A DNA stretch of 64,000 bases from Bacillota bacterium. Its GTDB lineage: Bacteria > Bacillota > Clostridia > Peptostreptococcales > Anaerovoracaceae. The notes beneath the pieces were generated by a model. The model was not told where the DNA came from. It saw nothing but the letters and a program-made list of their open reading frames with translations, and searched no databases. Location of the stretch: contig JAFUCA010000038.1 of assembly GCA_017459895.1 (NCBI GenBank), positions 1 to 64,000 on the forward strand, given 5' to 3'. This document shows positions 1 through 56,300 of this stretch, one piece after another. Positions within the stretch are counted from its first letter, which is position 1, and each line of letters starts with the position of its first letter. Position numbers and translations under genes: made by a program.

Positions 1-276
1 AAATTCGAGGCTTTCGGCTGGAACGTCATCTGCATTGACGGACACGATATGCAGCAGATCCTGGATGCCTTCGCCAAAGCCAGACAGACCAAGGGCAGAC
101 CGACCATGATCGTCGCCGAGACCATCAAGGGCAAGGGCGTTTCCTTCATGGAGGATCAGGCCGGCTGGCACGGCAAGGCGCCGAACGACGAGCAGGCCCA
201 GCAGGCGCTGGCAGAACTTGAGGCGCTTCTGGCGAGCCAAAAGGCCGAAGCGGACCAGCCTTTGGAAGAGCAGTAA
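1..276 (+). CDS. Transketolase, N-terminal (thiamine diphosphate-binding) subunit, 3' end only
   Basis: This is the last 91 codons of a gene that begins before the window; the reading frame is open from base 1 to the TAA at 274-276. The residues [16 protein letters not shown] followed by WHGKAPND match the end of the ThDP-binding half of transketolase. The next gene encodes the other half, so this organism has a split two-subunit transketolase, as many Clostridia do. The enzyme moves two-carbon ketol units between sugar phosphates in the non-oxidative pentose phosphate pathway in the cytoplasm. The tail after the conserved part is Ala/Glu/Gln-rich and carries one copy of the repeated 9-mer, on the minus strand at 255-265. 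Confidence 0.9.
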
Positions 277-289
277 GGAGGGATGTAGT

Positions 290-1219
290 ATGGCAGATAA
301 AATCGCAACAAGACAGGCATACGGAGAAATCCTCCAGGTGCTCGGAGAGGAATATGAGAATCTGGTCGTCCTGGACGCCGACCTCAGCGGATCGACGAAG
401 ACCGGCGAGTTCCGGAAAGTGTTCCCGGAGCGGTTCTTTAACTTTGGAATCGCGGAGCAGAACATGTACGCCCAGGCGGCGGGACTGGCGCTGTCCGGCA
501 AGATCGTCTGCGCCAGCACCTTTGCCATGTTCGCCACCGGCCGGGCCTTTGAGATCATACGCAACTCCATCGGCTACACCGGGGCCAACGTGAAGATCTG
601 CGCGACCCACGCGGGCATCACCGTCGGCGAGGACGGAGCCAGCCACCAGACCTTTGAGGACATCGCCCTGATGCGCACCATTCCCGGCATGACCGTCATC
701 AATCCCTCCGACGCGGTATCGGCCAAAAAGCTGATCCGCCAGGCGGTGGCGATGGACGGACCCTGCTACGTGCGCCTGGGCCGGGCGGCGGTTCCCGTGT
801 ATTATAAGGAAGAAGACGAGATCGTGCTGGGGAAGGCCAACCAGATCCGGGACGGAAAGGACCTGACCATCATCGCCAGCGGCATCATGGTGAGCGACGC
901 GGCGCAGGCGGCGCAAAGGCTGGCGGAGGAGGGGATCGATGCCCGGGTGATCGATATACACACCATCAAACCCATCGATGAGGAGATCATCATCAAAGCA
1001 GCCAGCGAGACCGGGGCCATCGTAACAGCCGAGGAGCACGGGATCATCGGCGGACTGGGGGATGCGGTCGCCCAGGTGGTGGTGAAGAACTGCCCGGTGA
1101 AGATGGCCATGGTGGGACAGAAGGACTGCTTCGGCGAATCCGGCAAGCCCGACGATCTGCGGGCCAAATACGGCATGACCGCGGAGGACATCGTGGCCGC
1201 AGCGAAGTCGCTTGTTTAG
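290..1219 (+). CDS. Transketolase, C-terminal (pyrimidine-binding and transketolase_C) subunit
   Basis: This 309-residue protein carries the pyrimidine-binding fold and C-terminal domain of transketolase. Visible landmarks are FFNFGIAEQNMYAQAAGLA with the conserved Glu that activates thiamine diphosphate, the segment GEDGASHQTFEDIALMR, and EEHGIIGGLGDAVA near the C-terminus. It pairs with the upstream subunit to form one active transketolase. I start it at the ATG at 290, which has GGAGGG at 277-282 just upstream; the frame is open further upstream but inside the preceding gene. The 13-base gap to the preceding stop implies co-transcription. A copy of the 9-mer repeat lies at 913-923, where it encodes Gln-Arg-Leu. 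Confidence 0.94.
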   Translation: MADKIATRQAYGEILQVLGEEYENLVVLDADLSGSTKTGEFRKVFPERFFNFGIAEQNMYAQAAGLALSGKIVCASTFAMFATGRAFEIIRNSIGYTGANVKICATHAGITVGEDGASHQTFEDIALMRTIPGMTVINPSDAVSAKKLIRQAVAMDGPCYVRLGRAAVPVYYKEEDEIVLGKANQIRDGKDLTIIASGIMVSDAAQAAQRLAEEGIDARVIDIHTIKPIDEEIIIKAASETGAIVTAEEHGIIGGLGDAVAQVVVKNCPVKMAMVGQKDCFGESGKPDDLRAKYGMTAEDIVAAAKSLV

Positions 1220-1371: not shown

Positions 1372-1433
1372 AAATGTGTATCGGTATCATCAGATGCGGT
1401 ACACATTTTTTCTTGAAAGGAAGCATTGTCTCG

Positions 1434-2276
1434 ATGATCGAGTTCAATAACGTAACGAAATATTACCGGTCCAACGTTGGGCTGGATAACGTGACGGTTC
1501 ATATCAAAAAAGGGGATTTCGTGTTTCTGGTGGGACCCAGCGGCGCAGGCAAATCGACTTTCATCAAGCTGATCCTGAAGGAACTGGATGCGGATAAGGG
1601 AACCATTAAGGTCCGGGGGGAAGATGTGACGAAGATGGCGGCGCGCCAGATTCCGGGACTTCGCCGCAACATCGGCATCGTCTTTCAGGATTTCCGGCTG
1701 CTGCCGAAGAAGACCGTTTATGAGAACGTGGCCTTTGCCATGGAGATCATTCACGCGCCGCGAAAGCTGATCCGAAAACACGTGCCCCAGGTGCTCAGCA
1801 TGATGGGCATCGCCCAGAGCGCCCGGAAATACCCGGACGAGCTCTCCGCCGGAGAGCAGCAGAGAGTTGCCATCGCCCGGGCCATCGTCAATAAGCCGAG
1901 GATTCTGATCGCCGACGAGCCCACCGGCAACCTGGATCCGGACACTGCCTGGGAGATCATGCAGCTTCTGAATATGATCAATCTGCGGGGGACCACGATC
2001 CTGATGGTCACCCACGCCAAGGACATCGTAGATAAGATGGAGAAGCGGGTTATCGCCATCGAGAACGGACGGATCGTCCGGGACGAATTCGGCATGTACG
2101 GATACAAGCAGGCCCTGATGGGGGATGACTCAGCCTTTGCAGAACCGGCAGTAAGAGACGGACGGCTGAGCGACACCCTGAGCGCGACCCGAAGGACGAT
2201 GCGAAGATCCCGGCCACAGGAGCCGCAGCCCCAGAAAGATGACCGGATCCGGTTTCACAGAGGAGGGCAGGACTGA
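1434..2276 (+). CDS. ftsE: Cell-division ABC transporter ATP-binding protein FtsE, with C-terminal extension
   Basis: FtsE is the cytoplasmic ATPase that drives FtsX to switch on peptidoglycan hydrolases during division. The 280-residue protein has Walker A GPSGAGKST, the signature LSAGEQQR (Ala for the usual Gly), Walker B ILIADEPTGNLD and the H-loop MVTHAKD. The start at 1434 gives the family-typical MIEFNNVTKYY; GAAAGG lies about 13 bases upstream. About 50 residues beyond the normal end form a basic, Pro/Arg/Gln-rich tail absent from typical FtsE (about 228 residues). A minus-strand copy of the 9-mer repeat sits in this tail at 2130-2140. Its stop overlaps the ftsX start by one base (TGATG). 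Confidence 0.95.
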   Translation: MIEFNNVTKYYRSNVGLDNVTVHIKKGDFVFLVGPSGAGKSTFIKLILKELDADKGTIKVRGEDVTKMAARQIPGLRRNIGIVFQDFRLLPKKTVYENVAFAMEIIHAPRKLIRKHVPQVLSMMGIAQSARKYPDELSAGEQQRVAIARAIVNKPRILIADEPTGNLDPDTAWEIMQLLNMINLRGTTILMVTHAKDIVDKMEKRVIAIENGRIVRDEFGMYGYKQALMGDDSAFAEPAVRDGRLSDTLSATRRTMRRSRPQEPQPQKDDRIRFHRGGQD

Positions 2277-4308: not shown

Positions 4309-5943
4309 ATGGCAGACGATTTAGCAAATACAATTATCAGAGAGCTGATGAGACAGCGGGGCATTCGCTCTGAGGAAGATGCGGAGGAATACCTGTCGGA
4401 TCTTCCCAGGCGGACGTACAACCCGTTTCTCATGAAGAATATGCGGGAGGGGACGGATCTGATCCTCTCCGAGATCCGGGCGGGCAGGCGGATCTGCATC
4501 TACGGGGATTACGATGTGGACGGCATCACCTCCGTCTGCATCCTCCACACGGTTTTGTCCCGCCTCACCGAGAATCTCACCTGGTATATCCCGTCCCGTT
4601 TCACCGAAGGTTACGGGCTTCACGAGGAGGCCATCGATCTTCTGCACAGGGAGGGCGTCGGTCTGATCATTACGGTGGACTGCGGCATCACCTCCGATCG
4701 GGAGGTTACGTATGCCCAAAGGCTGGGGATGCGCGTGCTGGTGACGGACCACCACAACATCGGCGATGTTCTGCCGGACTGCGTTACCATCGACCCGAAG
4801 CAGGAGGATGAGACGTATCCGTTCCGGGATCTGGCCGGCTGCGGCGTCGCCTATAAGCTGGCCCAGGCCATCCAGAGGCAGGCGGGCCTGGACCGCAGTG
4901 TTATTCTGGAGGTCCTGGATCTGGTGGCCTCCGGTACGGTGGCGGACATCGTGCCCCTGCTGGATGAGAATCGGACCATCGTCAAGTACGGACTGAGCAA
5001 GCTGAATGAGCGCAGCCGCGCGGGGCTGGCGGCGCTGGAGGAGGCCATCGGTCTGAAGGAGATCACCTCCGGGAGCATTTCCTACGGCATCGCGCCCCAC
5101 CTGAACGCGGCCGGCCGGATGAAGCATGCCGGGGAGGCGGTCCGGCTTTTGCTGGCACCGGAAACGGACCGGGATACCATCCGAAATCAGGTGCAGATCC
5201 TGCTCTCCTGCAATGCCCAGCGAAAGAAGCTTCAGAACGAAGCCTACGAGCGCGCCAGGGAGCAGATCACCGGAGAGGAATCCATCATCTGTCTGCAGGT
5301 GAACGGCATCCACGAGGGGATCGCCGGGATCGCTGCCGGTAAGCTAAAAGAAGACTTTCTGCGTCCGGTGATCCTGGCAACGGATACGGAGACAGGGCTC
5401 CTGAAGGGAACGGGCCGCAGCATCGAAGGCGTGGATCTGTTTCGGCTGCTGGACACACACCGGGACCGGTTCGTCCGGGTGGGCGGCCATAAGAGGGCCT
5501 GCGGATTTACCATCAGCGAGGAAGAGTTCCGAAGGCTCCAGCCTTTGCTTGAAGAGGAAGTGCGGCGGATCTACGAAGAGGACCCGTCCATTCTGGAGCT
5601 GACGGGAAACTATGACCTGGAGATCAGGCCCGGGGATGTGAGCCTGCCGCTGGCAGAGGCACTGTCGGTCATGGAGCCCTTTGGCGAGGCCAACGAGCAG
5701 CCGCGGTTCCTGATCCGGGATGTGATGATCCGATGGCCGAATTATATGGGAGAATCGAATCAGCACGTCCGGTTCAAGGCGGAGGGAGACGGCGCCCGGA
5801 TCCAGTGCGTGCTGTTCCAAAGGGCAGGCGAGTATGCGGAGCAGGTCGAATCGGGAGGGCCGGCAGGTCTGATCGGTACGGTGGAAATCAACGAATGGAA
5901 CGACCGAAAGGACGTCCAGTTCATCGTGAAGGAGATAGTATGA
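4309..5943 (+). CDS. recJ: Single-stranded-DNA-specific 5'-3' exonuclease RecJ
   Basis: RecJ degrades single-stranded DNA 5' to 3' in recombination and repair. The 544-residue protein has the DHH-family motifs YGDYDVDGITS (about 66-76), TVDCGI and VTDHHN with the catalytic DHH, then a DHHA1 domain with RVGGHKRACGF, and a C-terminal OB-like region. It is at the short end of the family (usually 560-750 residues). The ATG at 4309 follows GGAGG at 4294-4298. Two copies of the 9-mer repeat lie in it: 4716-4726 (+, as Gln-Arg-Leu) and 5538-5548 (-, as Gln-Pro-Leu). The stop overlaps the next start as ATGA. Confidence 0.93.
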   Translation: MADDLANTIIRELMRQRGIRSEEDAEEYLSDLPRRTYNPFLMKNMREGTDLILSEIRAGRRICIYGDYDVDGITSVCILHTVLSRLTENLTWYIPSRFTEGYGLHEEAIDLLHREGVGLIITVDCGITSDREVTYAQRLGMRVLVTDHHNIGDVLPDCVTIDPKQEDETYPFRDLAGCGVAYKLAQAIQRQAGLDRSVILEVLDLVASGTVADIVPLLDENRTIVKYGLSKLNERSRAGLAALEEAIGLKEITSGSISYGIAPHLNAAGRMKHAGEAVRLLLAPETDRDTIRNQVQILLSCNAQRKKLQNEAYERAREQITGEESIICLQVNGIHEGIAGIAAGKLKEDFLRPVILATDTETGLLKGTGRSIEGVDLFRLLDTHRDRFVRVGGHKRACGFTISEEEFRRLQPLLEEEVRRIYEEDPSILELTGNYDLEIRPGDVSLPLAEALSVMEPFGEANEQPRFLIRDVMIRWPNYMGESNQHVRFKAEGDGARIQCVLFQRAGEYAEQVESGGPAGLIGTVEINEWNDRKDVQFIVKEIV

Positions 5944-8205: not shown

Positions 8206-9036
8206 ATGGAATTTCAGTTTCTCGTAGAGAACAAGACAGAAACCGAAGGGATCCTGGCGGAGCACGGACTTTCGATCTACATCGATACCGGCGACAAGAA
8301 GATCCTGTTTGACGCGGGAGCATCCGACGCTTTCGCCATGAACGCGGACGCCATGAAGGTCGATCTGTCCCAGGTGGATCTGGCGGTGGTCAGCCACGGG
8401 CATTACGATCACACGGGAGGCTTCCCCATGTTCTGCCGGAGAAACCGCAAGGCCCCCATCTACATCCACAAGAATGCGTTCCGGGAATCCCACGGATTCG
8501 AGGACGGCAAGATCGAGGACGAGATGTGCGGCATCCGCTGGACGAAGGAACAGAGGGACGGGATCAGCAGCCGCTTCGTTCTGACGGACGGTCCGGTAAA
8601 GATCACCGACGACATCATCATCAGCGGCACCGTACCCATGGCCGAGGGGTTTGAACCCACCGAGAAGTTCTATTATTTCAGCGCCGGAGGAGCACCGGTC
8701 TTCGACGATATGTCCCACGAGCAGATCCTGGTGATCCGCTCCCCCGAAGGACTGTTCGTTTTCTCCGGCTGCTCCCACCGGGGCGTGATCTCCGCGCTGG
8801 AGGAGGCGCAGCGGCTGTTCCCCGGCGAGAAGGTTGCCTGCATGGTTTCCGGGATGCACCTTTATCATGCAAAGGCTGAGCAGCGCGCGGAAGTCATTGA
8901 GGCGTTCCGAAGAGCGCAGGTCGAGAAGATCATGCCCGTCCACTGCACCGGGATCGAAGCGATCTGTCAGATGAAGCAGGCCTTCGGTGATCGGTGCGTG
9001 ATCGGCATGGCAGGAGAGGCCTACCGTGACTTCTGA
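8206..9036 (+). CDS. MBL-fold metallo-hydrolase of the dihydropterin-ribofuranosyl-phosphate synthase-like group
   Basis: This 276-residue protein is a metallo-beta-lactamase-fold hydrolase. The metal motif SHGHYDHTGGF (about 64-74) matches HxHxDH with Tyr in the middle. The C-terminal SGCSHRGVISALEEAQ, GMHL and MPVHCTGIEA place it near the archaeal-type beta-ribofuranosylaminobenzene phosphate (RFA-P) synthase-like subgroup common in anaerobes. That name is a family label; the substrate here is not known. AGGAGG precedes the ATG at 8206, and the gene overlaps recX by 11 bases. It carries one 9-mer repeat at 8869-8879. Confidence 0.85.
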   Translation: MEFQFLVENKTETEGILAEHGLSIYIDTGDKKILFDAGASDAFAMNADAMKVDLSQVDLAVVSHGHYDHTGGFPMFCRRNRKAPIYIHKNAFRESHGFEDGKIEDEMCGIRWTKEQRDGISSRFVLTDGPVKITDDIIISGTVPMAEGFEPTEKFYYFSAGGAPVFDDMSHEQILVIRSPEGLFVFSGCSHRGVISALEEAQRLFPGEKVACMVSGMHLYHAKAEQRAEVIEAFRRAQVEKIMPVHCTGIEAICQMKQAFGDRCVIGMAGEAYRDF

Positions 9037-11098: not shown

Positions 11099-11839
11099 AT
11101 GAGCATATACGTTATTTCAGATCTGCATCTTTCATTCTTTCCGGGATCGGACAAGCCGATGGACGTATTCGGCCCCCGGTGGCACAATCACGCCCAAAGG
11201 CTGGAGACGGCCTGGCGGCAGTCGGTCACCGAAGAAGACACAGTGGTCATCCCGGGGGACATCTCCTGGGGGCTGAAGCTGGAGGATGCGAAGGTGGATC
11301 TGGACTGGGTGGCAGCTCTTCCGGGGAAGAAGATCCTCCTCAAGGGAAACCACGATCTCTGGTGGACGGGCATCACGAAGCTGAACCGGATGTACGGCAA
11401 TATGACCTTCCTGCAGAACGATCATGTGGAGGCGGAGGGGGTATATATCTGCGGCAGCCGGGGCTGGCTGACGCCGGACAACGAGGATTTTACCGCTGCC
11501 GATGAGAAGATCTACCGCAGGGAGCTGCTGCGGCTGGAGAGTTCTCTTAAGAGCGCGGCCCGCGCATTCGAACGGAAGAAGGCGGAAGAGGCCCCCGGAA
11601 CCACTGCGGAGGGCGGCCCGCGGATCCTGGGCATGCTCCACTATCCGCCGGTGTCCGACAGCAGCCGGTTCTCCGGGTTCCAGCAGCTGTTCGAAGACTA
11701 CGGCGTGAAGGATGTCTATTACGGCCACGTCCACGGAGAGGACGGATTTCGCAGCAGCATCAAGGGCGAGGTTCACGGGATCCGCTACCACCTGGTTTCG
11801 CTGGATTACCTGAACTGCCAGCCTTTGCAGATCCTGTAG
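11099..11839 (+). CDS. Calcineurin-like metallophosphoesterase
   Basis: This 246-residue protein has the metallophosphoesterase motifs in order: ISDLHLSF (DxH), VVIPGDISWG (GD), LKGNHDLWW (GNHD), and the late histidines in LHYPP and YYGHVHG (GHxH). It is a predicted soluble binuclear-metal phosphoesterase of unknown substrate, of a type common in Firmicutes. Only 8 bases separate it from rmuC. Copies of the 9-mer repeat lie near both ends: 11194-11204 (+) and 11818-11828 (-). Confidence 0.88.
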   Translation: MSIYVISDLHLSFFPGSDKPMDVFGPRWHNHAQRLETAWRQSVTEEDTVVIPGDISWGLKLEDAKVDLDWVAALPGKKILLKGNHDLWWTGITKLNRMYGNMTFLQNDHVEAEGVYICGSRGWLTPDNEDFTAADEKIYRRELLRLESSLKSAARAFERKKAEEAPGTTAEGGPRILGMLHYPPVSDSSRFSGFQQLFEDYGVKDVYYGHVHGEDGFRSSIKGEVHGIRYHLVSLDYLNCQPLQIL

Positions 11840-11861: not shown

Positions 11862-13208
11862 ATGAATACGGTTGAACTGATCACAAAAAAGAGAAACGGC
11901 GGGGAGCTGTCCCGGGAGGAGATCCGGTACCTGGTGATGGGCTTCACGGAAGGGAGCATCCCCGATTATCAGATGTCCGCCTTCCTGATGGCTGTGTACT
12001 TCCGGGGAATGAGCCGGCAGGAGACGATCTGGCTGACCCAGGAGATGAAGATGTCCGGGGACATTGCGGACCTTTCGTGGATCCACGGCATCAAGATCGA
12101 TAAGCACAGCACCGGCGGCGTGGGGGATAAGACGACGCTGATCATCGGTCCGCTGGCAGCGGCCTGCGGAGTCCCGGTGGCCAAGATGAGCGGCCGGGGG
12201 CTCGGCTTTACCGGCGGCACGGTGGATAAGATGGAGGCGATTCCCGGATTTCGGACCGCCCTTGCGGAGGAGGAGTTCTTCGGCCAGGTGCAGCGCTGCG
12301 GGATCTCCGTGATCGGCCAGACAGCCCATATCGCGCCGGCGGACAAGAAGATCTACGCGCTGCGGGATGTGACGGCGACGGTGGAGAATCTGAGTCTGAT
12401 CACCTCCAGCATCATGAGCAAGAAACTGGCCTCCGGCTCGGACGGGATCCTGCTGGACGTCAAGTGCGGCAGCGGCGCGTTCATGAAGACCGAAGAGGAT
12501 GCCCGGTCGCTGGCGGAAATGATGGTGGATATCGGCCGCGCGGACGGAAAGAAAATGCTGGCTCTCATCACCGACATGAACCAGCCCCTGGGCAACGCGG
12601 TGGGCAACGCGCTGGAGGTGCGGGAGGCGATCCGGGTGCTGCGGGGCGAAGGGCCGGCAGATATCACGGAGCTTTCCGTTGCGCTGGCGGGCCGGATGGT
12701 CTTCATGGGCGAGCTGGCGGATTCGGCAGAGGATGGCATCGCAAAGGCTGGCGATGCGCTGCGCAGCGGCGCGGGCCTGGATAAGTTCCGGGAATTTGTC
12801 CGCGGACAGGGAGGCGATCCGGCGGTTGCGGAAGATCTGTCGCTGCTTCCGCTGAGTGAGCTTCGGATGGAGATCGCCGCGCCGAGGGATGGTTATATTA
12901 CCGGCATCGATGCCATGACCATCGGCCTGGCGTCCCAGCATACGGGCGCCGGGCGGCAGACCAAGGAAGATGTCATCGACCACGGCGCGGGGATCCTGCT
13001 GCATCATAAGAGCGGGGACAAGATCCGGGCCGGAGAGGCGCTGATGACGCTTTACAGCGCCGAAGCGTCCAAATTGGAACTGGCGGCTGCCGAAGCGGCA
13101 AAAGCCGTTCAGATCGGCGATGAGGCGCCGGTTCTGCCGCCGCTGATCCGCGGAAGCGTGGGAGAGGAACCGGTGCCTGAGAATCGAGAAAAGGAGTGTG
13201 GCCTATGA
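11862..13208 (+). CDS. pdp: Pyrimidine-nucleoside (thymidine) phosphorylase
   Basis: The enzyme splits uridine or thymidine with phosphate into free base and (deoxy)ribose-1-phosphate. The 448-residue length and sequence match the family: the phosphate/substrate motif KHSTGGVGDKTTLIIGPLAAACG, then KMSGRGLGFTGGTVDKMEAI, SIMSKKLASGSDGILLDVK, and a C-terminal swivelling domain (HHKSGDKI). Its stop overlaps the ATG of a nucleoside-receptor-type lipoprotein gene (ATGA), which suggests a nucleoside-scavenging pair. A 9-mer repeat lies at 12741-12751. Confidence 0.95.
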   Translation: MNTVELITKKRNGGELSREEIRYLVMGFTEGSIPDYQMSAFLMAVYFRGMSRQETIWLTQEMKMSGDIADLSWIHGIKIDKHSTGGVGDKTTLIIGPLAAACGVPVAKMSGRGLGFTGGTVDKMEAIPGFRTALAEEEFFGQVQRCGISVIGQTAHIAPADKKIYALRDVTATVENLSLITSSIMSKKLASGSDGILLDVKCGSGAFMKTEEDARSLAEMMVDIGRADGKKMLALITDMNQPLGNAVGNALEVREAIRVLRGEGPADITELSVALAGRMVFMGELADSAEDGIAKAGDALRSGAGLDKFREFVRGQGGDPAVAEDLSLLPLSELRMEIAAPRDGYITGIDAMTIGLASQHTGAGRQTKEDVIDHGAGILLHHKSGDKIRAGEALMTLYSAEASKLELAAAEAAKAVQIGDEAPVLPPLIRGSVGEEPVPENREKECGL

Positions 13209-14419: not shown

Positions 14420-14788
14420 GTGCCTTGATCCACCGTTTCAAACCATCGTCTCTACCACCAGATTCGAAATTCCTCTCAATATGGTAGGATCCTACCATAT
14501 CCCGTTGAGTTTGCTCATTTCGTGGTAGCTTCGTGTGACCGGATCGTCAGATCTGAAGATCACAACCATCCCACGTATAATGCAGGTTTATTTATACAAC
14601 TACGATCTATCACCGCATATCCAGCCTTTGTATATTAATGAATATTCATACATTCAAACTGTACCTCTAGGTCAATCTTCATTCTGAAAAGGAGGTGATC
14701 CGGCAAGACATAACATAATGTTCCCCAAATTATATGTAAACCAGGCAAAATGAGGCTGTTTTTGCACAAAACCGACCAAAGAAAAACG
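14420..14788. other. AT-rich gene-free stretch with a 22-bp perfect palindrome and one 9-mer repeat
   Basis: I see no gene here. The stretch holds a perfect 22-bp palindrome at 14479-14500, built from ATATGGTAGGA and its complement, inside an outer inverted repeat CTCAA (14475-14479) and TTGAG (14506-14510). It also carries a minus-strand copy of the 9-mer repeat at 14631-14641. The rest is AT-rich without an open frame that has a ribosome binding site. The palindrome could be an operator for the downstream secreted glucosaminidase, though it lies about 300 bases from that promoter. Confidence 0.6.
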
Positions 14789-16036: not shown

Positions 16037-16045
16037 TGCAAAGGC

Positions 16046-16074
16046 TGGGCAGTCCGCAGATCATCTGATATAAT
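16046..16074 (+). promoter_or_regulatory. Candidate promoter of the M29 aminopeptidase gene
   Basis: TATAAT at 16069-16074 lies 17 bases after TGGGCA (16046-16051, 4 of 6 consensus bases). The -35 overlaps the end of a 9-mer repeat copy (16038-16048) that sits just after the preceding stop codon. A second TATAAT occurs at 16082-16087. Confidence 0.35.
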
Positions 16075-30173: not shown

Positions 30174-30626
30174 GAATGGGCACATCCATTATTGTACATA
30201 AACCGGATCTCGGAGCTGTTATTTACAAAATCCGATGGTAATATTGAACGTAAGTCCGGTTTCAAAGCATTATTTACAATGACATTCTCGGGGCAGTCAA
30301 TAAAATGAGCTCTTCAGAGCGTTTTAACAGGGTTTTTGACTGTGCAGACCGCGGTGATCCAGGGATATGGGTCCGGATCATTGTAAATAATGAAGTGAAA
30401 ATCAAGTTCTGTACAATCTGGCAATGAATTTTTGTAAAAATCGACTTGAATCTGCCGGAAGGTACAATAATACCAGATATTGGAACCGCCAAGACCAGCC
30501 TTTGCAGCCCGGGAGAAGCGAAACCTCCGAGCATTTTTGGCGAAAACGATTTCTCTGTTGTTTTTAAGCAAAGGCTGGTATATAATTGTATTGTAATTTT
30601 CTGAAAACCTGTGAGGAGGTTGCAAT
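30174..30626. other. Gene-free AT-rich stretch with two separate long-range inverted repeats
   Basis: I see no gene here. A 15-base sequence at 30268-30282 (CATTATTTACAATGA) recurs exactly in inverted orientation at 30378-30392. The related TTATTTACAA also occurs near 30220. Farther on, ACCAGCCTTTGC (30494-30505) and GCAAAGGCTGGT (30568-30579) form an exact 12-base inverted pair of the window-wide repeat motif. TATAAT at 30581-30586 may be a -10 element for the next gene, without a clear -35. Confidence 0.6.
30494..30579. repeat. Inverted pair of the window-wide GCAAAGGCTGG motif
   Basis: Two full copies face each other, exact over 12 bases, with 62 bases between them in intergenic DNA. Inverted pairs of uptake sequences are common between genes in Neisseria and Haemophilus, where they often double as terminators. 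Here the spacing is wide and no U tract follows the second copy. Confidence 0.7.
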
Positions 30627-44192: not shown

Positions 44193-46724
44193 ATGAGTTA
44201 TAACGTTAGGAGAGTGCTGGCGGTTGTGTTCATCATAATCATCGCATTCGGTTGGGTCGTTACAGTCAAGGGAATCGGGCCGCTCACCCCGATCAAGGAC
44301 CGCATGGGACTGGGTCTGGATATCAAGGGCGGCGTCTACGTCGTTTTGGAAGCGGATGAGAAGGATCTGGCCAAATACAGTTCCGATGAGGATAAGCGTA
44401 CGGTCATGGAACAGACCCAGGCCGTCATTGAGAACCGTGTCAACGAGCTGGGACTTTCGGAGCCGACGGTTACCATCGAAGGTGAGAACCGGATCCGTGT
44501 CGAGCTTCCGGGGGCAGAGAATGCAGAGGAAGCCATCGAGCAGATCGGTAAGACCGCGCAGCTGCAGTTCATCCTGGCGGACGGATCGCTGGTGCTGGAC
44601 GGAGGCAGCGTGAAGGACGCGCAGGCCGGACAGGATGACAAATCCACAAGCTACGCCGTCAACCTGCAGTTTGATTCCAGCGGTGCTGACGCGTTTTATG
44701 AGGCCACCAAAAAGGCATATAACGGCGAAGTCACTTCCGCCATTCAGGGCGTGGACAGCGGAGCCATCGCCATCGTTCTGGACAATGAGATTATTTCCGC
44801 GCCCCACGTCAATGAGCCGATTGCAGGAGGAAGCTGCAGCATCACCGGTGATTTCACCATGGACGAAGCATCCAATCTGGCGGCTCTGATCCGAGGCGGT
44901 TCACTGCCGATCACCCTGACCGAGGTTACATCCTCGGTACAGTCGGCGCAGATCGGATACAACGCGCTGGAGATGAGCGTCTATGCCGGCCTGATCGGTC
45001 TGGGACTGATCCTGCTGCTGATGCTGATCGCCTACCGTGGTCTCGGTATCGCAGCTGACCTGGCGCTGCTGTTCTACGTGGTCATCGTTCTGAACATCAT
45101 GTCCCTGATGCACGTAACACTGACTCTGCCGGGCATTGCCGGTATCATCGTCGCCGTCGGAATGGCGGTAGACGCCAACGTTATCATATTCTCCCGTATC
45201 CGGGAAGAACTGGCTGCCGGCCGGAGCATTCGGGTGGCGGCGGAGACCGGATATAAGCGGGCGCTGACCTCGATCATCGACTCCCAGGTCACCACGCTGA
45301 TCGCGGCAGTCATCCTGTACGAGGTTGGTACCAGCTCCGTCAAGGGATTCGCCTTCACGTTCATGGTCGGTATCATCGTCAGCATCTTCACAGCGGTCAT
45401 CGTCACCCAGCTGTATGTGGGACTGTTCGCCCAGGGCAGAGGCACCGCCAAGCTCAGCTTCTTCGGAATGAAGAAGGACGGTACGGCTTCCTTTACCTTC
45501 ACGAAGCTGATCCCGGTCATCGATAAGCGTAAGATCTTCTACTGCATTTCCGCCGTGATCCTGATCATCGGCCTGGGCTGCGGCGTGATCCGCGGACTGA
45601 ACTTCGGTATCGACTTCACCGGCGGTACCATGATCCAGATGGATATGCACAAGCAGGTCAAGATCGCTGATGTGGAGAAGGCCATTGCCGAGTACGATCT
45701 GGAGCCCACCATCATCTATTCCGGCGCCGGCAACGAGGAGATCGTCATCCGTACGAAGGTTGCCATGGAGAACGAAGACCGTGCGAAGGTCATTGACACC
45801 ATCAACGAGACCTTTGGAACCACCGACGATGACATCATCGCTCAGGAGCTGTTCGGCGGATCCATCGGTAAGGAGCTGCGAAACAACGCGATCCTGGCGA
45901 TCCTGATCGCTGCGGCATGTATGCTGATTTATATCCGGATTCGGTTCCGTCAGTGGCGGTTCGGCGGGGCGGCCCTGCTGGGCGTCCTCCACGACGTACT
46001 GATCGTCATTTCGTTCTACGCGATCTTCCAGGTCACGGTCAACAACCCGTTCATCGCCGGTATCCTGACCGTCGTCGGTTACTCGATCAACGATACCATC
46101 GTTATCTTCGACCGGATCCGTGAGAACCTGAAATACATGAAACGGGGCACTCTGGTGGAGACCATCGACCGGTCCATCACCCAGACCCTGGGACGTTCCT
46201 TGATGACCTCGGCGACCACCATCATCGTCATGGTGCCGCTGCTGATCATGGCGGGGGATGCCATCCGCGTGTTCATCCTGCCGCTGATGGTTGGTATCCT
46301 GGCCGGAACGTATTCTTCGATCTGCATGTGCTCGCCGCTGTACTATGAGTTCAGCACCGCGACGAAGGTCTCGACCTACGAACGTCAGGTCAAGCTGGCC
46401 AAGAAGCAGGCGAAGAAGGACGCGAAGGCAGCGAAGAAGCTGGGACAGCCGGCCGCAGAGATCCCGGCTCCTGCAGAGGAGCAGCCCGCTTCCGAGGCGG
46501 CGGAGGCTGCCGCCGAAGCTTCTGCAAAGGCTGGAGAGGCTGAGGCGAAAGCCGCCGAAGCTTCCGCAAAGGCTGGTGAAGCCGAGGCGAAGGCTGAGAA
46601 CGCCCAGCCGAAGAAACCCGAGAAGAAGAAACCGGCTTCCGGCGAGCGCCGTTCCAAGCGGTATGTCAAAGGCAACAAGAAACCGGCCGAGCCGAGAGAC
46701 GAAGAAGACAGTTTCCGTCTGTAG
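44193..46724 (+). CDS. secDF: Fused protein translocase subunit SecDF
   Basis: SecDF uses the proton gradient to help pull exported proteins through the Sec channel. This 843-residue protein joins SecD (GLGLDIKGGVYVVLEAD, then LPITLTEVTSSVQSAQIG and GMAVDANVIIFSRIREEL) to SecF (GIDFTGGTMIQMDM, VGYSINDTIVIFDRIRENL). It has 12 predicted helices, six per half. The C-terminal 100 residues are a cytoplasmic Lys/Ala/Glu-rich tail with two 14-residue tandem repeats encoded by a 42-bp DNA duplication (46509-46550, 46551-46592). Each unit contains one GCAAAGGCTGG motif. The SD is GGAGG. Confidence 0.95.
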   Translation: MSYNVRRVLAVVFIIIIAFGWVVTVKGIGPLTPIKDRMGLGLDIKGGVYVVLEADEKDLAKYSSDEDKRTVMEQTQAVIENRVNELGLSEPTVTIEGENRIRVELPGAENAEEAIEQIGKTAQLQFILADGSLVLDGGSVKDAQAGQDDKSTSYAVNLQFDSSGADAFYEATKKAYNGEVTSAIQGVDSGAIAIVLDNEIISAPHVNEPIAGGSCSITGDFTMDEASNLAALIRGGSLPITLTEVTSSVQSAQIGYNALEMSVYAGLIGLGLILLLMLIAYRGLGIAADLALLFYVVIVLNIMSLMHVTLTLPGIAGIIVAVGMAVDANVIIFSRIREELAAGRSIRVAAETGYKRALTSIIDSQVTTLIAAVILYEVGTSSVKGFAFTFMVGIIVSIFTAVIVTQLYVGLFAQGRGTAKLSFFGMKKDGTASFTFTKLIPVIDKRKIFYCISAVILIIGLGCGVIRGLNFGIDFTGGTMIQMDMHKQVKIADVEKAIAEYDLEPTIIYSGAGNEEIVIRTKVAMENEDRAKVIDTINETFGTTDDDIIAQELFGGSIGKELRNNAILAILIAAACMLIYIRIRFRQWRFGGAALLGVLHDVLIVISFYAIFQVTVNNPFIAGILTVVGYSINDTIVIFDRIRENLKYMKRGTLVETIDRSITQTLGRSLMTSATTIIVMVPLLIMAGDAIRVFILPLMVGILAGTYSSICMCSPLYYEFSTATKVSTYERQVKLAKKQAKKDAKAAKKLGQPAAEIPAPAEEQPASEAAEAAAEASAKAGEAEAKAAEASAKAGEAEAKAENAQPKKPEKKKPASGERRSKRYVKGNKKPAEPRDEEDSFRL

Positions 46725-49042: not shown

Positions 49043-49488
49043 GAGCAGTCATACAGAAAGTCAATCAAAGCAGCGTCACCGTCGCAGGTGAGGTGAAAGG
49101 GCAGATCGGTCCCGGTTTCATGGTGCTCATCGGCGTCGAGACCGGCGACACGGAGAAGGATGCCCAGTACATCGCGGACAAGATCACGGGCCTGAGGGTC
49201 TTCGAGGATGAAGATGACAAACTGAATCTTTCCATTGAGGATGTGGGCGGCGAGATCCTGGCGGTCTCCCAGTTCACGCTTCTGGCGGACGCCCGCAAGG
49301 GCCGGCGCCCCGGATTCTCAAAGGCTGCACGCCCGGAAGAGGCGAACGAGCTGTATCAGAGCGTCATACGCCATATCCGCGAGAAGGGAATTCATGTGGA
49401 GGAAGGAGTCTTCCAGACTCATATGGTCGTCCACATCGAAAACGACGGACCGGTGACCATTTTGCTGGACAGCCATAAGCTGTTCTAG
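49039..49488 (+). CDS. dtd: D-aminoacyl-tRNA deacylase
   Basis: DTD removes D-amino acids wrongly attached to tRNA. The 149-residue length is typical. Diagnostic segments are the N-terminal [15 protein letters not shown], the SQFTL motif ([10 protein letters not shown]) and the cross-subunit Gly-cisPro motif, which appears here as NDGPVT near the C-terminus. Its ATG overlaps the relA stop, the common relA-dtd arrangement. A 9-mer repeat lies at 49318-49328. Confidence 0.95.
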
Positions 49489-50144: not shown

Positions 50145-51594
50145 GATCCGCATCACGGGAACGGACAAGCTGAATCCCTACGAGGAGCTGATCAAGGTCT
50201 TCCTGCAGCCCTCGGAGTACCGGCTGATCGGGGCTGATGACGATGCAAAGGCTGGAGAGCTTATCCCAAAGGCTGGAGCCGGCGCAGATTCTGAGGCGAT
50301 CATTCCTCTGACCTACCGTTTCGACGGCGATTCCGATGCGGTGAAACGCCAGATCTACCGGGATCTTGAGCAGCACACAGGAAAGTCCCCCAAGTGGGGG
50401 ATCCTGACGGGGATCCGTCCGGTAAAACTGGCCTATGAGCTTACCTACGGGCAGCGAAGAGACGCGTCTTCGGATGAGACCGCAGTGGATTCTACGGCGG
50501 CGCGGATGCGCACGGATGAGATCCTGAAAGAACGGTATCTGCTGCATCCGGCGAAGCGGCATCTGGTGCAGGAGATCCTGGAGTACCAGCGGCAGACTGC
50601 GGGAGAGCCCGCCGAAAGAAGCCTTTCGGTTTACCTTGGCATTCCGTTCTGTCCGACCCGATGCCTCTATTGCTCCTTCACCTCCAATCAGGTGGGGACG
50701 CCGGAGATCCGGCGGTACCTTCAGGCGCTGCACCGGGAGATCGAATACGCCGGCGCGGCGGCCGCAGAAGACGGATTCCGGGTGGAATCGGTCTATTTCG
50801 GCGGAGGGACGCCCACCACGCCGGATCCGGACCAGCTGGACCGGCTACTGGAAGCGATGGAGCGGCACTTCGATCTGTCGCAGATCCGGGAATTCACCGT
50901 GGAGGCTGGCAGGCCGGATACGATCACGGAGCAGAAGCTGGCGGTGCTTCGGGCGCATGGCGTGGACCGCATCAGCATCAATCCCCAGTCCATGCATCAG
51001 CGGACGCTGGACCGCATCGGCCGCAGGCACACGGTTCTTCAGACGGAGGAAGCCTTCGCCCTGGCAAAGGCGGCAGGGTTTGACTGCATCAACGCGGATC
51101 TGATCGCCGGTCTTCCGGGAGAGGACTTCCCAGACTTTGCACAAAGCCTGGAGCGTGTCACAGCCCTCGGCGCGGACAACATCACGCTGCATACGCTGGC
51201 AGTGAAACGGGCCTCCCGGCTGAAGGAAATGGACGAGAATTACAATTATAAACAGGAGGTCCTGCGGGAAGAGATGCTGGCCCACGCAGCAAAGAGGCTG
51301 CGGGAGGAGGGCTTCGCTCCGTACTACCTGTACCGGCAGAAGCACACCTCGGGAAGCACCGAAAACATCGGATATTGCAGGGAGGATAAAATCTCTGTTT
51401 ATAATATCAGGATCATGGAGGAGCGGCAGTCGATCCTGGCGCTGGGAGCCGGAGGGATCAGCAAGATCTGGTTTCCGGCCGAGAACCGCCTGGAGCGGAT
51501 CGCCAATGTATCCAATTACGAGATCTACATCGATCGCATCGATGAAATGATTGCCAGAAAACGCGCTAAGTTTTTTGGCCAGACAACAAGATAA
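50137..51594 (+). CDS. hemZ: HemZ-type coproporphyrinogen dehydrogenase (radical SAM)
   Basis: HemZ is a HemN/HemW-like radical SAM protein. The 485-residue protein has the cluster motif GIPFCPTRCLYCSF, then YFGGGTPTTPDPDQL, VEAGRPDTIT and the C-terminal YYLYRQKHTSGSTENIGYC. An oxygen-independent coproporphyrinogen oxidase role is the family annotation, but no other heme genes are nearby, so a haem-chaperone-like role is possible. The most likely start is a TTG at 50137 with AAAAGGAG ten bases before it; no ATG fits. A linker (about 35-55) carries two repeat copies, 50245-50255 and 50266-50276. Confidence 0.9.
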   Translation: MFEIRITGTDKLNPYEELIKVFLQPSEYRLIGADDDAKAGELIPKAGAGADSEAIIPLTYRFDGDSDAVKRQIYRDLEQHTGKSPKWGILTGIRPVKLAYELTYGQRRDASSDETAVDSTAARMRTDEILKERYLLHPAKRHLVQEILEYQRQTAGEPAERSLSVYLGIPFCPTRCLYCSFTSNQVGTPEIRRYLQALHREIEYAGAAAAEDGFRVESVYFGGGTPTTPDPDQLDRLLEAMERHFDLSQIREFTVEAGRPDTITEQKLAVLRAHGVDRISINPQSMHQRTLDRIGRRHTVLQTEEAFALAKAAGFDCINADLIAGLPGEDFPDFAQSLERVTALGADNITLHTLAVKRASRLKEMDENYNYKQEVLREEMLAHAAKRLREEGFAPYYLYRQKHTSGSTENIGYCREDKISVYNIRIMEERQSILALGAGGISKIWFPAENRLERIANVSNYEIYIDRIDEMIARKRAKFFGQTTR

Positions 51595-51609: not shown

Positions 51610-52860
51610 ATGTTAACAAACGCACCCAAAGGAACCAAGGATGTCATGCCGCAGGAGGCATACAAGTGGCACTATCTGGAGGAGAAGTTTGCGGAGACCT
51701 GCCGCAAGTACGGTTTTCAGGAGATCCGCACTCCGGTATTCGAGCATACCGAGCTGTTCCACCGCGGTGTAGGCGATACCACCGATATCGTTCAGAAGGA
51801 GATGTACACCTTCAAGGATTTCGCGGGCAGAAGCATCACCCTGCGCCCGGAGGGGACCTCTCCGGTGGTCCGTGCGTACGTCGAGCACAAGGAATACGCC
51901 GGCGTACAGCCGAACAAGTATTATTACAATATCCCGTGCTTCCGCTATGAGAAGCCGCAGTCGGGCCGTCTCAGAGAGTTCCACCAGTTCGGCGTGGAGA
52001 CCTTCGGAACGACGGATATGATGGCGGATGCGGAGATCATCGCCATTGGTTACGATTTCATCAAGTCCATGGGAATCACCGATGTGAAGCTGGAGATCAA
52101 CAGCGTAGGATGTCCGGGCTGCCGCGGCGAACACCGCAAGGCCCTCAAGGATTTCCTGCGCCCGAAATACGATCAGCTGTGTCCGACCTGCCAGGAACGC
52201 TTCCACACGAACCCGATGCGTATTCTGGACTGCAAGTCCCCGATCGATCAGGAGCTGGTTCAGGGCGCGCCCATGATGCTGGATTACCTCTGCGACGATT
52301 GCCGCACAGCCTTTGAGGAGCTCAAGGCGAATCTGGACGCCTTCGGCATCGAATACGAAGTCAACCCGAAGATCGTCCGCGGTCTGGATTACTATACGAA
52401 GACGGCCTTTGAATTCGTCACCACCAAGATCGGCGCCCAGGGCACGGTCTGCGGCGGCGGCAGATACGACGGCCTGGTGGAGGAGATCGGCGGCCCGTCC
52501 ACTCCGGGCGTCGGCTGGGGCATGGGCAAGGAGCGCATGCTGATGACCATGGAGGCCTGCGGCTTCGAGATTCCGAAGGAACCGGGCACGGATGTGTTCA
52601 TCGCCTACATGGGTGATGCGGGCAAGATGGCGGCCCTGAAGCTGATGAAGGAGCTGCGGGATGCCGGCATCGCGGTCCAGATGGACGTCATGGGCCGTAA
52701 CCTGAAGAACCAGTTCAAGCACGCCAACCGGATAGGCGCCGCCAAGACCATCGTCATCGGTGACAGCGAGCTCGAAAGCGGCCGGCTGACCATCAAGGAT
52801 ATGGAGAGCGGAGAGCAGACGGAAGTGGCGATTGAGGGGATCGTGGATGCGCTGAAATAA
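51610..52860 (+). CDS. hisS: Histidyl-tRNA synthetase
   Basis: HisRS is a class II synthetase. This 416-residue enzyme has motif 1 around FQEIRTPVFEHTELFHRGVGDTTDIV, motif 2 in RPEGTSPVVRAY and FRYEKPQSGRLREFHQFGVE, the histidine-binding segments RGLDYYTKTAFEF and GGGRYDGLV, and an anticodon-binding C-terminal domain. The ATG at 51610 follows GTGGAGG. It is followed by a 477-base gap with two large palindromes, then aspS; the hisS-aspS order is common in Firmicutes. A 9-mer repeat lies at 52306-52316. Confidence 0.96.
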   Translation: MLTNAPKGTKDVMPQEAYKWHYLEEKFAETCRKYGFQEIRTPVFEHTELFHRGVGDTTDIVQKEMYTFKDFAGRSITLRPEGTSPVVRAYVEHKEYAGVQPNKYYYNIPCFRYEKPQSGRLREFHQFGVETFGTTDMMADAEIIAIGYDFIKSMGITDVKLEINSVGCPGCRGEHRKALKDFLRPKYDQLCPTCQERFHTNPMRILDCKSPIDQELVQGAPMMLDYLCDDCRTAFEELKANLDAFGIEYEVNPKIVRGLDYYTKTAFEFVTTKIGAQGTVCGGGRYDGLVEEIGGPSTPGVGWGMGKERMLMTMEACGFEIPKEPGTDVFIAYMGDAGKMAALKLMKELRDAGIAVQMDVMGRNLKNQFKHANRIGAAKTIVIGDSELESGRLTIKDMESGEQTEVAIEGIVDALK

Positions 52861-53337: not shown

Positions 53338-55104
53338 ATGGCAATTTTGAAACGCACCCACATGTGCGGCGACCTCAGAACAGAACACATCGGACAGACC
53401 GTCTCCCTGAACGGCTGGGTGGCCAAGCGGAGAAATCTGGGCGGGCTGATCTTCTGTGATGTGAGAGATAAGACCGGCATTACCCAGGTCGTGTTCAACG
53501 ATCAGATCCCGCAGGAGCTGTTTGAGCGGGCGGACCGCCTGCGCAGCGAGTACGTTGTGGGCGTGCGCGGCAAGGTAGCGGAGCGGGAATCCAAGAACCC
53601 GGATCTGCCCACCGGCGACATTGAGATCCTGGCGGAGGAGCTGGTGATCTACTCCGAGGCGGAGACACCGCCGATCTACATCAAGGACGATGACAACGTG
53701 GATGACAATCTGCGTCTGAAATACCGCTATCTGGACCTGAGAAAAAAGAAAATGCAGGACAACCTGACCTTCCGGGCACGGCTGACGGGGATCGCACGGA
53801 ATTACTTCGCCGAGCAGGGATTCACCGAGGTCGAGACACCGATGCTGATCAAGTCCACGCCGGAAGGGGCCCGGGACTATCTGGTGCCAAGCCGCGTCAA
53901 TCCGGGGCGTTTCTATGCGCTGCCCCAGTCCCCCCAGACCTTCAAGCAGCTGCTGATGGTGGGCGGCACCGACCGGTACTTCCAGATCGTCAAGTGCTTC
54001 CGGGACGAGGACCTGCGGGCGGATCGTCAGCCGGAATTCACCCAGATCGACCTGGAGATGTCCTTCGTGGAGGTGGATGACGTCATCGAAGTCCAGGAAG
54101 GCTTCCTGAAGCGCGTTTTCCGCGAGCTGAAGGGCATCGAACTGCAGACACCGTTCCCCAGAATGACCTGGCAGGAGGCCATGGACCGCTATGGCAGCGA
54201 TAAGCCGGACACCCGGTTCGGATTCGAGCTGCAGGACATCACCGGGCTGGTCAGAGACTGCGATTTCAAAGTCTTCACCGATGCCATCGAAAAGGGCGGC
54301 AGCGTCCGGGGCATCTGCGTGAGCGGCGCAGCAACCGCCTATACGAGGAAGAAGATCGATAAGCTTACCGAAGCCATCAAGAGCTACGGCGCGAAGGGCA
54401 TGGTATGGATGAAGGTGAACGCGGAGGGCGTCGCTTCCTCCGTCAATAAATTCTTCACACCGGAGCAGCTCAAGGAGATCGCAGATTCCATGGGAGCGAA
54501 GGAAGACGATCTGATCCTGATCGTCAGCGACAGCAACAAGGTCGTCTGGGATGCGCTGGGATTCCTCAGAAGACACATCGCAGGAGAGTTGGGACTGCTG
54601 GATGACGAGCAGTACAACTTCCTGTGGGTCGTGGACTTCCCGCTGTTCGAGTACGACGAGAAGGAGGACCGCTGGTCCGCCATGCACCATCCGTTCACTT
54701 CCCCGAAGGAAGAGGACGCGCAGCTTCTGAAGACCGATCCCCACGCCTGCAAGGCCAACGCCTATGACATCGTCTTAAACGGCGTGGAGCTCGGCGGCGG
54801 CAGCATCCGTATCCACGATAAGGAGATGCAGGAAGATATGTTCAAGGCCCTGAATATGGGCGAGGAAGAGATCAACGAGAAATTCGGCTTCCTGGTGGAA
54901 GCCTTCCGTTACGGCACGCCGCCCCACGGAGGCCTTGCCTATGGGCTGGACCGGCTGGTCATGCTCCTCACCGGAGAGAAATCCATCCGGGAGGTCATCG
55001 CCTTCCCGAAAAATCAGGCAGCCCAGTGCATGGTCAGCGAGGCTCCGGGACTGGTGGATGAGACGCAGCTGGAGGAGCTGGGCATTCGCCTGAGAGAAGA
55101 GTGA
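53338..55104 (+). CDS. aspS: Aspartyl-tRNA synthetase
   Basis: This 588-residue class II synthetase is of the bacterial type. It has an N-terminal OB-fold (HIGQTVSLNGWVAKRRNLGGLIFCDVRDKTG), class II motif 2 around KCFRDEDLRADRQPEFTQIDLEMSF, the bacterial GAD insertion (about 290-410) and motif 3 in GLAYGLDRLVMLLTGEKSIREVIAFPK. A GAAAGGA sequence precedes the ATG. The stop overlaps the nadD start (TGATG). The discriminating or non-discriminating type cannot be told from what I see. Confidence 0.96.
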   Translation: MAILKRTHMCGDLRTEHIGQTVSLNGWVAKRRNLGGLIFCDVRDKTGITQVVFNDQIPQELFERADRLRSEYVVGVRGKVAERESKNPDLPTGDIEILAEELVIYSEAETPPIYIKDDDNVDDNLRLKYRYLDLRKKKMQDNLTFRARLTGIARNYFAEQGFTEVETPMLIKSTPEGARDYLVPSRVNPGRFYALPQSPQTFKQLLMVGGTDRYFQIVKCFRDEDLRADRQPEFTQIDLEMSFVEVDDVIEVQEGFLKRVFRELKGIELQTPFPRMTWQEAMDRYGSDKPDTRFGFELQDITGLVRDCDFKVFTDAIEKGGSVRGICVSGAATAYTRKKIDKLTEAIKSYGAKGMVWMKVNAEGVASSVNKFFTPEQLKEIADSMGAKEDDLILIVSDSNKVVWDALGFLRRHIAGELGLLDDEQYNFLWVVDFPLFEYDEKEDRWSAMHHPFTSPKEEDAQLLKTDPHACKANAYDIVLNGVELGGGSIRIHDKEMQEDMFKALNMGEEEINEKFGFLVEAFRYGTPPHGGLAYGLDRLVMLLTGEKSIREVIAFPKNQAAQCMVSEAPGLVDETQLEELGIRLREE

Positions 55105-56300
55105 TGAAACGGATCGGTATTCTCGGAGGCAGTTTTGACCCGGTTCACGAGGGGCACGTGGGACTGGCGCGGGATGCTCTGGCCCAGGCAGATCTGGATC
55201 AGGTGCTTCTGATTCCGGCGCGGCTGCAGCCTTTCAAGCAGGACCGGATGCCGGCCAGCGGCGAAGACCGGATGGAGATGCTCCGTCTGGCCCTGGCTCA
55301 GGACCCCGGGATCGAGCCCTGCAGCTACGAGCTGGAGCAGGAGGGGGTTTCCTATACCTACCGGACGCTGCGGGCCATGCAGGAGCGTTTCGGGCCCGAG
55401 GCGAAGATCTGTTTCATCACGGGGACCGATTCGATCCTGAAGCTGGACACCTGGATGAACGCGGAGGAACTGCTCACAAGGTACAGCTACATCGTCGGCA
55501 GCCGTCCGGGCTACGACGATACGGAGCTGAAGGAATGCGTCCGGCGGCTGGAGGAGACCTACGGGACGGAGATCCGCATCATTCACAATGCGCCCTTCGA
55601 TATCTCCGCCACCGAGATCCGGGAGAGGCTGGCCGCGGGAGCATCCGCGGAAGGCCTGGTCCCCCCGGCGGTCCTGGAGTACATCCGGGAGCACGGGCTC
55701 TATCGCAATCAGGATCTGAATGCCCGGGGCCTTGCCTACATCCGGGAGCACCTGAAGGAGTCCCGGCTGGCCCACACCTGCCGGGTAGCGGATACCGCCG
55801 TGACCCTGGCCAGACGCTTCGGCGCCGATCCTGCAAAGGCTGAGACGGCCGCGATCTTCCACGACATGGCAAAGAACATGTCCGCAGAGGAGATGAACGA
55901 GCAGATCCGAAGCTTCGGACTTGATGAAAAATATATAGACAACCCGAATCTTGCCCACAGCAAGATCGCCCGCTGCCTGATGGTGCGGGACTTCGGCATC
56001 ACCGACGAGGATATCCTGAACGCGGTGGCCTATCATACCACCGGCCGGGCGGGGATGAGCCTTCTGGAGAAGGTCGTATTCCTGGCCGATGCCATTGAAC
56101 CGGGGCGCAGCTATCCTTCGGCGGAGGAAATTCGAAGGATCGCAGACACCGACCTGGACCGGGCCTGCCTTTGCATGCTGGAGAGAACCGTCGCCTACCT
56201 GAAGAAGAAGGGCGCCCGGATCGATACCGACACGACAGATGCGCTGGCGTATCTGAAAGATAAACCAATTCTCAATGAGGAGGAGAACAAACATGCTTGA
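55104..56300 (+). CDS. NadD-YqeK fusion: nicotinate-nucleotide adenylyltransferase plus HD-domain dinucleotide hydrolase
   Basis: Two enzymes usually encoded by neighbouring genes are joined here in 398 residues. The N-terminal half (about 1-200) is NadD, with GGSFDPVHEGHVGLA (HxGH nucleotide-binding motif) and the late motif NAPFDISATEIRERL; it makes NaAD in NAD synthesis. The C-terminal half (about 210-398) is a YqeK-type HD protein, with HTCRVADTAVTLA and FHDMAKNM, then ARCLMVRDFG and AVAYHTTGRAGM. YqeK proteins hydrolyse diadenosine tetraphosphate. The start at 55104 overlaps the aspS stop by one base. A 9-mer repeat lies at 55833-55843. Confidence 0.93.
   Translation: MKRIGILGGSFDPVHEGHVGLARDALAQADLDQVLLIPARLQPFKQDRMPASGEDRMEMLRLALAQDPGIEPCSYELEQEGVSYTYRTLRAMQERFGPEAKICFITGTDSILKLDTWMNAEELLTRYSYIVGSRPGYDDTELKECVRRLEETYGTEIRIIHNAPFDISATEIRERLAAGASAEGLVPPAVLEYIREHGLYRNQDLNARGLAYIREHLKESRLAHTCRVADTAVTLARRFGADPAKAETAAIFHDMAKNMSAEEMNEQIRSFGLDEKYIDNPNLAHSKIARCLMVRDFGITDEDILNAVAYHTTGRAGMSLLEKVVFLADAIEPGRSYPSAEEIRRIADTDLDRACLCMLERTVAYLKKKGARIDTDTTDALAYLKDKPILNEEENKHA

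Follow-up and report, generated by a model that had tools for sequence, protein, structure and literature searches.

A dense bipartite motif with clade-specific dialects in the Anaerovoracaceae (Clostridia), a probable DNA uptake sequence

The Pasteurellaceae and the Neisseriaceae are named as the families that have uptake sequences (PMC5031613, accessible part). The DNA uptake sequence (DUS) of the Neisseriaceae, ATGCCGTCTGAA, occurs in eight dialects; these mirror phylogeny, and all contain a CTG core that transformation requires (PMC3630211, accessible part). According to the accessible part of PMC12040237, nearly all competent species import DNA regardless of its sequence, the exceptions being Neisseria and Haemophilus. 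Here, the 9-mer CAAAGGCTG is described, which recurs throughout a stretch of 64,000 nucleotides (contig JAFUCA010000038.1 of assembly GCA_017459895.1, positions 1 to 64,000; contig C10 in this study, hereafter the window) from a Bacillota bacterium of the Anaerovoracaceae. The genome, designated G000, comprises 2,495,951 bases in 55 contigs and is estimated to be 93% complete. The evidence strongly supports a self-specific genome tag with dialects, which acts at the DNA level and is probably read by a protein. Judged from its distribution, the motif is likely to be a DNA uptake sequence of independent origin.

Neither an uptake sequence of Clostridia or of any other Gram-positive bacteria nor CAAAGGCTG as a genomic motif was found in the open-access literature among the matches listed, in line with the initial annotation, which knew of no such sequence in Clostridia. 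The accessible parts of PMC12236230, PMC5217627 and PMC2843746 do not report an uptake sequence in these bacteria.

Within the window, 31 exact copies of CAAAGGCTG are found between positions 256 and 55842, 17 on the plus and 14 on the minus strand, and 14 copies extend to the exact 11-mer GCAAAGGCTGG; both counts agree with the initial annotation. Dinucleotide shuffles of the window give 0.42 copies (maximum of 2 over 100 shuffles) and an order-4 Markov model gives 1.3, the excess being 24- to 74-fold depending on the background, a range that makes the earlier estimate of about 60-fold a fair one. The terminal 8 kb of the window, which harbor RNase J (Pfam) and other core genes (by eye), are devoid of the motif. 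A gap of this length is expected by chance, since the maximum gap under random placement in the sample averages 10.5 kb. Outside the window the counts do not fall to background. The whole genome contains 1143 copies of CAAAGGCTG (574 forward, 569 reverse) against 28 of the reversed control (13 and 15), and 601 copies of the 11-mer (300 and 301) against 1 and 2 of its reversed control, with a mean density of about one 9-mer copy per 2.2 kb. Contigs C12 and C14 (L018, L019) are near-identical to parts of C6 and C34 due to assembly redundancy, so that the genome-wide counts of both the 9-mer and the 11-mer are slightly inflated. In an order-wide draw of 247 genomes, which did not comprise the four sister species sharing the CTG form of the motif, the 246 genomes other than G000 contained at most 12 copies of the 11-mer each, which rules out a window-local effect as well as an order-wide motif.

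The context of the copies was analyzed in a sample of about 0.52 Mb of G000 (about 0.51 Mb once duplicates were removed). With duplicate contigs still included, the genic copies are distributed over the frames as 20, 54 and 11 on the same strand and 24, 38 and 20 on the opposite strand, and 31 out of 198 copies are intergenic compared to 18.6 expected. The earlier statement that the motif is read in all six frames holds, and copies also lie between genes. A set of 434 called coding sequences, in which the duplicate contig L018 was still included, contains 206 copies, 106 on the same and 100 on the opposite strand. After 100 synonymous shuffles of these sequences a mean of 4.0 same-strand and 2.2 opposite-strand copies was left (maxima of 10 and 7), amounting to about 6 in total, and a codon-pair model predicts about 14 in total. 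A cause at the level of codons, codon pairs or amino acids is thereby ruled out. The sequences flanking the copies are unrelated except for a few bases at fixed positions, and this absence of homology outside the motif likewise excludes a recent repeat family or a miniature inverted-repeat transposable element. Close neighbors at less than 60 bp form only seven distinct pairs among about 240 sites, four of them opposed, and inverted-repeat terminators were accordingly rejected as the main role. When the GC skew of the individual stretches (about 0.51 Mb) was used to assign the copies to replication strands, 121 were leading and 118 lagging, which, together with the even genome-wide strand count, supports the previously noted lack of strand bias.

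Flank statistics over about 240 sites resolve the best form of the site as bipartite, YGCAAAGGCTGG-N5-CC, with the CC element at a distance of about one helical turn from the center of the core. Position -1 is a pyrimidine (T in 60%, C in 26%) and position 0 is G in 74% of the sites; these are followed by the fixed search core CAAAGGCTG and by G at +10 in 67%. C is present at +16 in 55% and at +17 in 47% of 239 sites, compared to a background of 28%. The preference at +16 is raised in five out of six frame classes (0.51-0.74) and in intergenic copies (0.55); at +17, intergenic copies (0.68) and three frames (0.45-0.56) show a clear preference. When the four sister species are pooled (87 sites), C has a frequency of 0.49 at +16 and of 0.48 at +17; in G179 alone, the value at +16 is 0.29 (14 sites). 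Among single-mismatch variants of the 11-mer, G6>A is strongly enriched (26 versus 0.6 expected), and enrichment is also seen for the first and last G, C2>G and G7. Mismatches at A3-A5, C8 and G10 are nearly absent, with two copies over 15 variants. The CAAAAGCTG variants (42 sites) carry the same flanks as the main motif. This pattern of mismatches looks like that of a recognized site rather than of random decay.

Conservation of the sites was assessed in the sister species G191, G156, G179 and G187. A total of 16 out of 24 aligned sites are exactly kept (7/9, 3/3, 4/6 and 2/6, respectively), compared to about 21% of other 9-mers in the same alignments (range 16-22%; p 2.7e-6). Of 39 sites compared with nine species whose dialects differ or whose motifs are weak, only 1 is kept. 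Among the 49 members of the genus, several of which are incomplete metagenome-assembled genomes (MAGs), CAAAGGCTG is frequent only in G000 (1143 copies), G191 (783), G179 (479), G156 (457) and G187 (415), the others having at most 149. The record of G156 names goat jejunum as the source, and RUG isolates such as G179 are presumably rumen MAGs. The shorter core GCAAAGGC reaches a density of more than 200 copies per Mb in 33 of the 49 genus members, compared to 1 out of 145 other family members searched (G018, with 202), all values being based on rounded genome sizes. A core excess over the reversed control was not found in the genus members G189, G192 and G193.

Related species place different endings on the common GCAAAGG core. 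K-mer and flank analysis assigns GCAAAGGCA(R) to G150 and G165, GCAAAGGCA to G178, G181 and G166, GCAAAGGCAAY to G159 and TGCAAAG(G/C)GCA to G127. In G162, GCAAAGGC is followed mostly by C or T, in G152 a C is suggested, and G175 displays no clear preference. Since the reversed control is poorly matched in composition in low-GC genomes, synonymous shuffles were relied on where sequence was at hand. These confirm the dialects beyond effects of the amino-acid sequence: the observed copies exceed those in shuffles for GCAAAGGCA in G150 (36 versus 2.3), for the dialect motif in G165 (34 versus 6.1) and in G178, G181 and G166 (30 versus 4.4), for CAAAGGCAA in G159 (27 versus 1.6) and for GCAAAGGC in G162 (41 versus 7.8). 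The dialect of G127 is weaker (10 versus 2.0 and 8 versus 1.4), and pooled controls without a visible motif (G189, G151, G155, G068) yielded 15 versus 10.4. C at +16 is also raised outside the CTG form, with frequencies of 0.42 for the pooled GCAAAGGCA species, 0.41 for G150 and 0.56 for the AAAGGCAA set of G159; this weakly suggests one kind of reader protein. In a ComEA tree, whose named outgroups are labelled Anaerovoracaceae, Bacillota, the four CTG species present form one clade (99/96; G191 lacks a ComEA for the tree), and six species labelled motif-less group with G127 in another (99/98). Four of these six were sampled; G192 and G193 were labelled from core counts. The GCAAAGGCA species require two changes on this tree and do not appear as one clade. 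G043 and G116, from another genus of the family, possess a dialect-like motif GACAAAG(G/T)CNGCA (shuffles: CAAAGGCTG 16 versus 1.8; GACAAAGG 29 versus 5.2), so that the tag system may extend beyond the genus. In G149, four GCAAAGGC copies within about 160 bases (G149:C41:106-269), at spacings that are multiples of 12, probably constitute a tandem repeat.

These properties can be set beside those of the described systems. The length, the density, the lack of a general orientation bias and the occurrence of a different motif in a subclade are shared with the uptake signal sequence (USS) of the Pasteurellaceae, AAGTGCGGT, according to the accessible part of PMC2346458. The Clostridia motif differs in sequence and host lineage and has few close inverted pairs (four opposed out of seven). 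The USS combines a short core with weaker flanking positions, as does the motif described here; its flank consists of A/T tracts, in contrast to the CC element. With the DUS, the motif has in common a length of 10-12 bases, a very high density, the use of both strands and the presence in genic as well as intergenic DNA. As in the Neisseriaceae, dialects follow phylogeny around an invariant short core (PMC3630211, accessible part). Unlike the DUS, the Clostridia motif, which occurs about once per 2.2 kb, has a different sequence with CC about one helical turn from the core and comes without a recognized ComP-like N-methyl pilin. Since an evident sequence likeness to DUS or USS is absent, the motif, if real as an uptake sequence, would be a convergent third case.

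Genes for DNA uptake, which the initial annotation had suggested looking for, are present in G000. ComEC was found in 40 out of 49 genomes including G000; the ComEA model matches in 47 (43 above cut-off), G000 having a ComEA, and DprA matches in 45, again including G000. The weaker ComEA matches, mostly in frames of 650-900 amino acids, are probably other helix-hairpin-helix proteins. An operon of G000 at about C34:333070-336891 encodes a T2SSF platform, four small membrane-anchored proteins, here read as pilin-like (one matches DUF4860), and a PilT-like ATPase. This type IV filament-like operon is conserved in G191 and G187 and partly in G156. At L195:14138-15813, four small pilin-like proteins, which lack a canonical prepilin motif by eye, are situated between a T2SSF platform and a PilT-like ATPase; the set is a candidate for a reduced type IV filament. 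A second T2SSE ATPase of G000 is labelled CpaF/Tad-like by length and profile range.

The longest motif-free run in contigs C1-C6, among the matches listed, is the final 13.6 kb of C3, which reaches the contig end. The surrounding region (C3:46001-62743, L314) has a GC content of 40-50% compared to 57% in the sampled genome, and within the run Pfam identifies a replication-relaxation protein, a conjugative coupling ATPase, an MT-A70 methylase, an AAA ATPase as well as ThiF and JAB domains. The one motif copy in this region falls between the run and a resolvase N-terminal domain, which is located some 3 kb ahead of the run. An element extending to the resolvase would hold one copy in 16.7 kb or more, compared to about eight expected at the mean spacing of the sample. 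Such scarcity in a conjugative-element region is what a self-tag predicts, as one post hoc case, and it resembles the way in which conjugative elements were found in Neisseria, namely by their atypical DUS distribution (PMC7371117, accessible part). The AAA ATPase, ThiF and JAB-domain proteins stand in a row and possibly form a ubiquitin-like modification module.

By its distribution, the tag may work like DUS and USS. A DNA-binding protein of the competence apparatus at the cell surface would recognize the double-stranded bipartite site YGCAAAGGCTGG-N5-CC, most strictly at AAA, C and G; the likeliest reader would be a pilin-like protein at the tip, with ComEA as a less likely choice. DNA bearing the site would be taken up preferentially and enter through ComEC, and recombination with DprA and RecA would then replace the resident allele, restoring mutated sites and spreading new ones. 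Uptake followed by allele replacement would account for the density, the strand symmetry, the conservation and the clade-specific dialects. It is also likely that the motif belongs to a third class of uptake sequences, which evolved independently and is the first in a lineage of Gram-positive type. This class would be bipartite and dialect-forming, and in place of a ComP-type N-methyl pilin its reader would be a reduced filament, type IV or Tad-like, or some other competence protein of the cell surface. The initial reading as a self-recognition uptake sequence or another DNA-level signal is thus supported by the genomic data: each of the counter-explanations named there, namely background counts outside the window, replichore bias, codon-pair effects and a repeat family, was tested and failed, and the sites proved to be conserved in sister species. 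The dialects, the competence genes and the scarcity in one conjugative-element region lend further support.

Several observations weigh against an uptake function. N-methyl pilins were found in only five of the 49 genomes searched and a canonical one was missing in the other 44, including G000, so that canonical type IV pilins were discarded as the uptake filament of G000. G162, which is 98% complete and has a strong core motif, gave no PilT-like match and only an ATPase labelled CpaF/Tad-like; G184 (91% complete) gave a match to neither. No ComEA above cut-off was found in G159 (89% complete, with a clear dialect) or G191 (71%), and no ComEC match in G156 (79%). Conversely, G189 and G192 keep ComEC and ComEA without a core excess. 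Due to these gaps and the two motif-less species, no single machinery gene tracks the motif, and a clean relation across species between the motif and ComEA, ComEC or the filament ATPases is absent, a comparison which is blurred by incomplete MAGs. The second element of the site is not uniform either. C at +16 is not raised in frame class 'same 0' (0.33) and not significant in G165 alone, G162 or G127, and C at +17 is weak in two frames (0.33 and 0.37) and absent in 'anti 0' (0.19). The spacing of copies, with a coefficient of variation of 0.873, lies at the edge of the random 95% range (0.873-1.090). The mobile-element case is a single region, picked for lacking the motif, and this low-GC region does hold one copy. 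Finally, the gene calls in the sample stem from an in-house codon-usage script. The unrecognized ComEA of G159 and the copy in the mobile region slightly lower the confidence in the uptake reading.

Among the alternatives, a Chi-like signal, by which an AddAB- or RecBCD-type nuclease is switched and the cell's own DNA thereby undergoes repair instead of degradation, would be dense, self-marking, species-specific and scarce in a mobile-element region, as the motif is. Chi and KOPS (FtsK-orienting polar sequences) are likewise over-represented genome-wide, and Chi motifs vary between species. However, Chi is biased to the leading strand and KOPS are strongly oriented toward the terminus, and the ratio of 121:118 displays no such orientation in the sample. 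This argues against both types of motif, and KOPS and Chi were rejected on these grounds; since the site is moreover long and bipartite, whereas known Chi sites have 5-8 bases and are mostly leading-strand biased, a Chi-like role is improbable. The genome-wide spread over genic and intergenic DNA, the strand balance and the bipartite, protein-like form of the site would also suit a nucleoid or chromosome-organizing protein which uses both orientations. Dialects within one genus and the lack of an excess in G189, G192 and G193 are unlike a housekeeping architectural protein, however, and the site, being asymmetric and non-palindromic, gives no hint of a dimeric binder, which makes this explanation quite improbable.

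Scarcity in the examined conjugative-element region would equally be expected of another kind of self-marker, for example one that protects from a DNA-targeting defence or serves as a modification site. Since restriction sites tend to be depleted and not enriched, such a role appears highly improbable. That the motif is an artefact of codons, amino acids or dispersed repeats has next to no probability and is already refuted for G000. A certain frame preference exists, as 54 of the 167 genic copies share one frame, and in some dialect species part of the copies stems from Ala-Lys-Ala coding (5.3 of 25 same-strand copies expected in G165). These effects stand against 206 copies where shuffles and codon-pair model give 6-14, the equal use of coding strands and the unrelated flanks. 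An uptake sequence remains the best explanation.

The individual copies in the window, all exact matches, are spread over genes and spacers, with gene assignments from Pfam. On the plus strand, copies that extend to the exact 11-mer are found at 914..922, 12742..12750, 16039..16047 and 30569..30577 (both intergenic), 34972..34980 (htpG), 46525..46533 and 46567..46575 (both in the secDF tail) and 50246..50254 (a radical-SAM gene), and 9-mers at 4717..4725 (recJ), 8870..8878, 11195..11203, 17550..17558, 24648..24656, 34785..34793 (htpG), 49319..49327, 50267..50275 (the radical-SAM gene) and 55834..55842. The last of these lies in a gene with CTP_transf_like and HD domains, and its 9-mer is kept at the orthologous site of G191. 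On the minus strand, copies that extend to the 11-mer occupy 5539..5547 (recJ), 11819..11827, 21152..21160 (a signal-peptide region by eye), 30496..30504 (intergenic), 34014..34022 (htpG) and 36836..36844, and 9-mers 256..264, 2131..2139, 14622..14630 (intergenic), 17867..17875, 24303..24311, 25746..25754, 38936..38944 and 52307..52315. Thus, the placements in HtpG and SecDF given by the initial annotation stand, and that in HemZ is compatible with the radical-SAM match; FtsE is seen in the translation only. Pfam adds RecJ and the nucleotidyltransferase-HD protein.

Other sequence biases were noted in passing. In the window, CAGGATC/GATCCTG is over-represented (71 versus 34) and strongly skewed between strands (8 versus 63), and TCCGGGA (47:17) and CTGGTGG (28:12) are skewed as well, which may reflect a codon effect or a replication-oriented motif. 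In the G000 sample, CGATCGA is strongly depleted (52 versus 191), possibly reflecting a restriction system, and CGTGACAATT recurs (12 versus 0.2), perhaps as a portion of a longer dispersed repeat.

If the motif is an uptake sequence, self-tagging of DNA would have evolved repeatedly and would not need an outer membrane. These bacteria would then transform naturally and often, and the motif would be a marker of frequent transformation that can be read from genomes alone. It would also suggest what has to be added to DNA in order to make such bacteria genetically tractable, and the presence of about five dialects (one of them weak) within one genus offers a comparative route to the receptor. 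Between sibling species, the tag would form a barrier against the exchange of genes.

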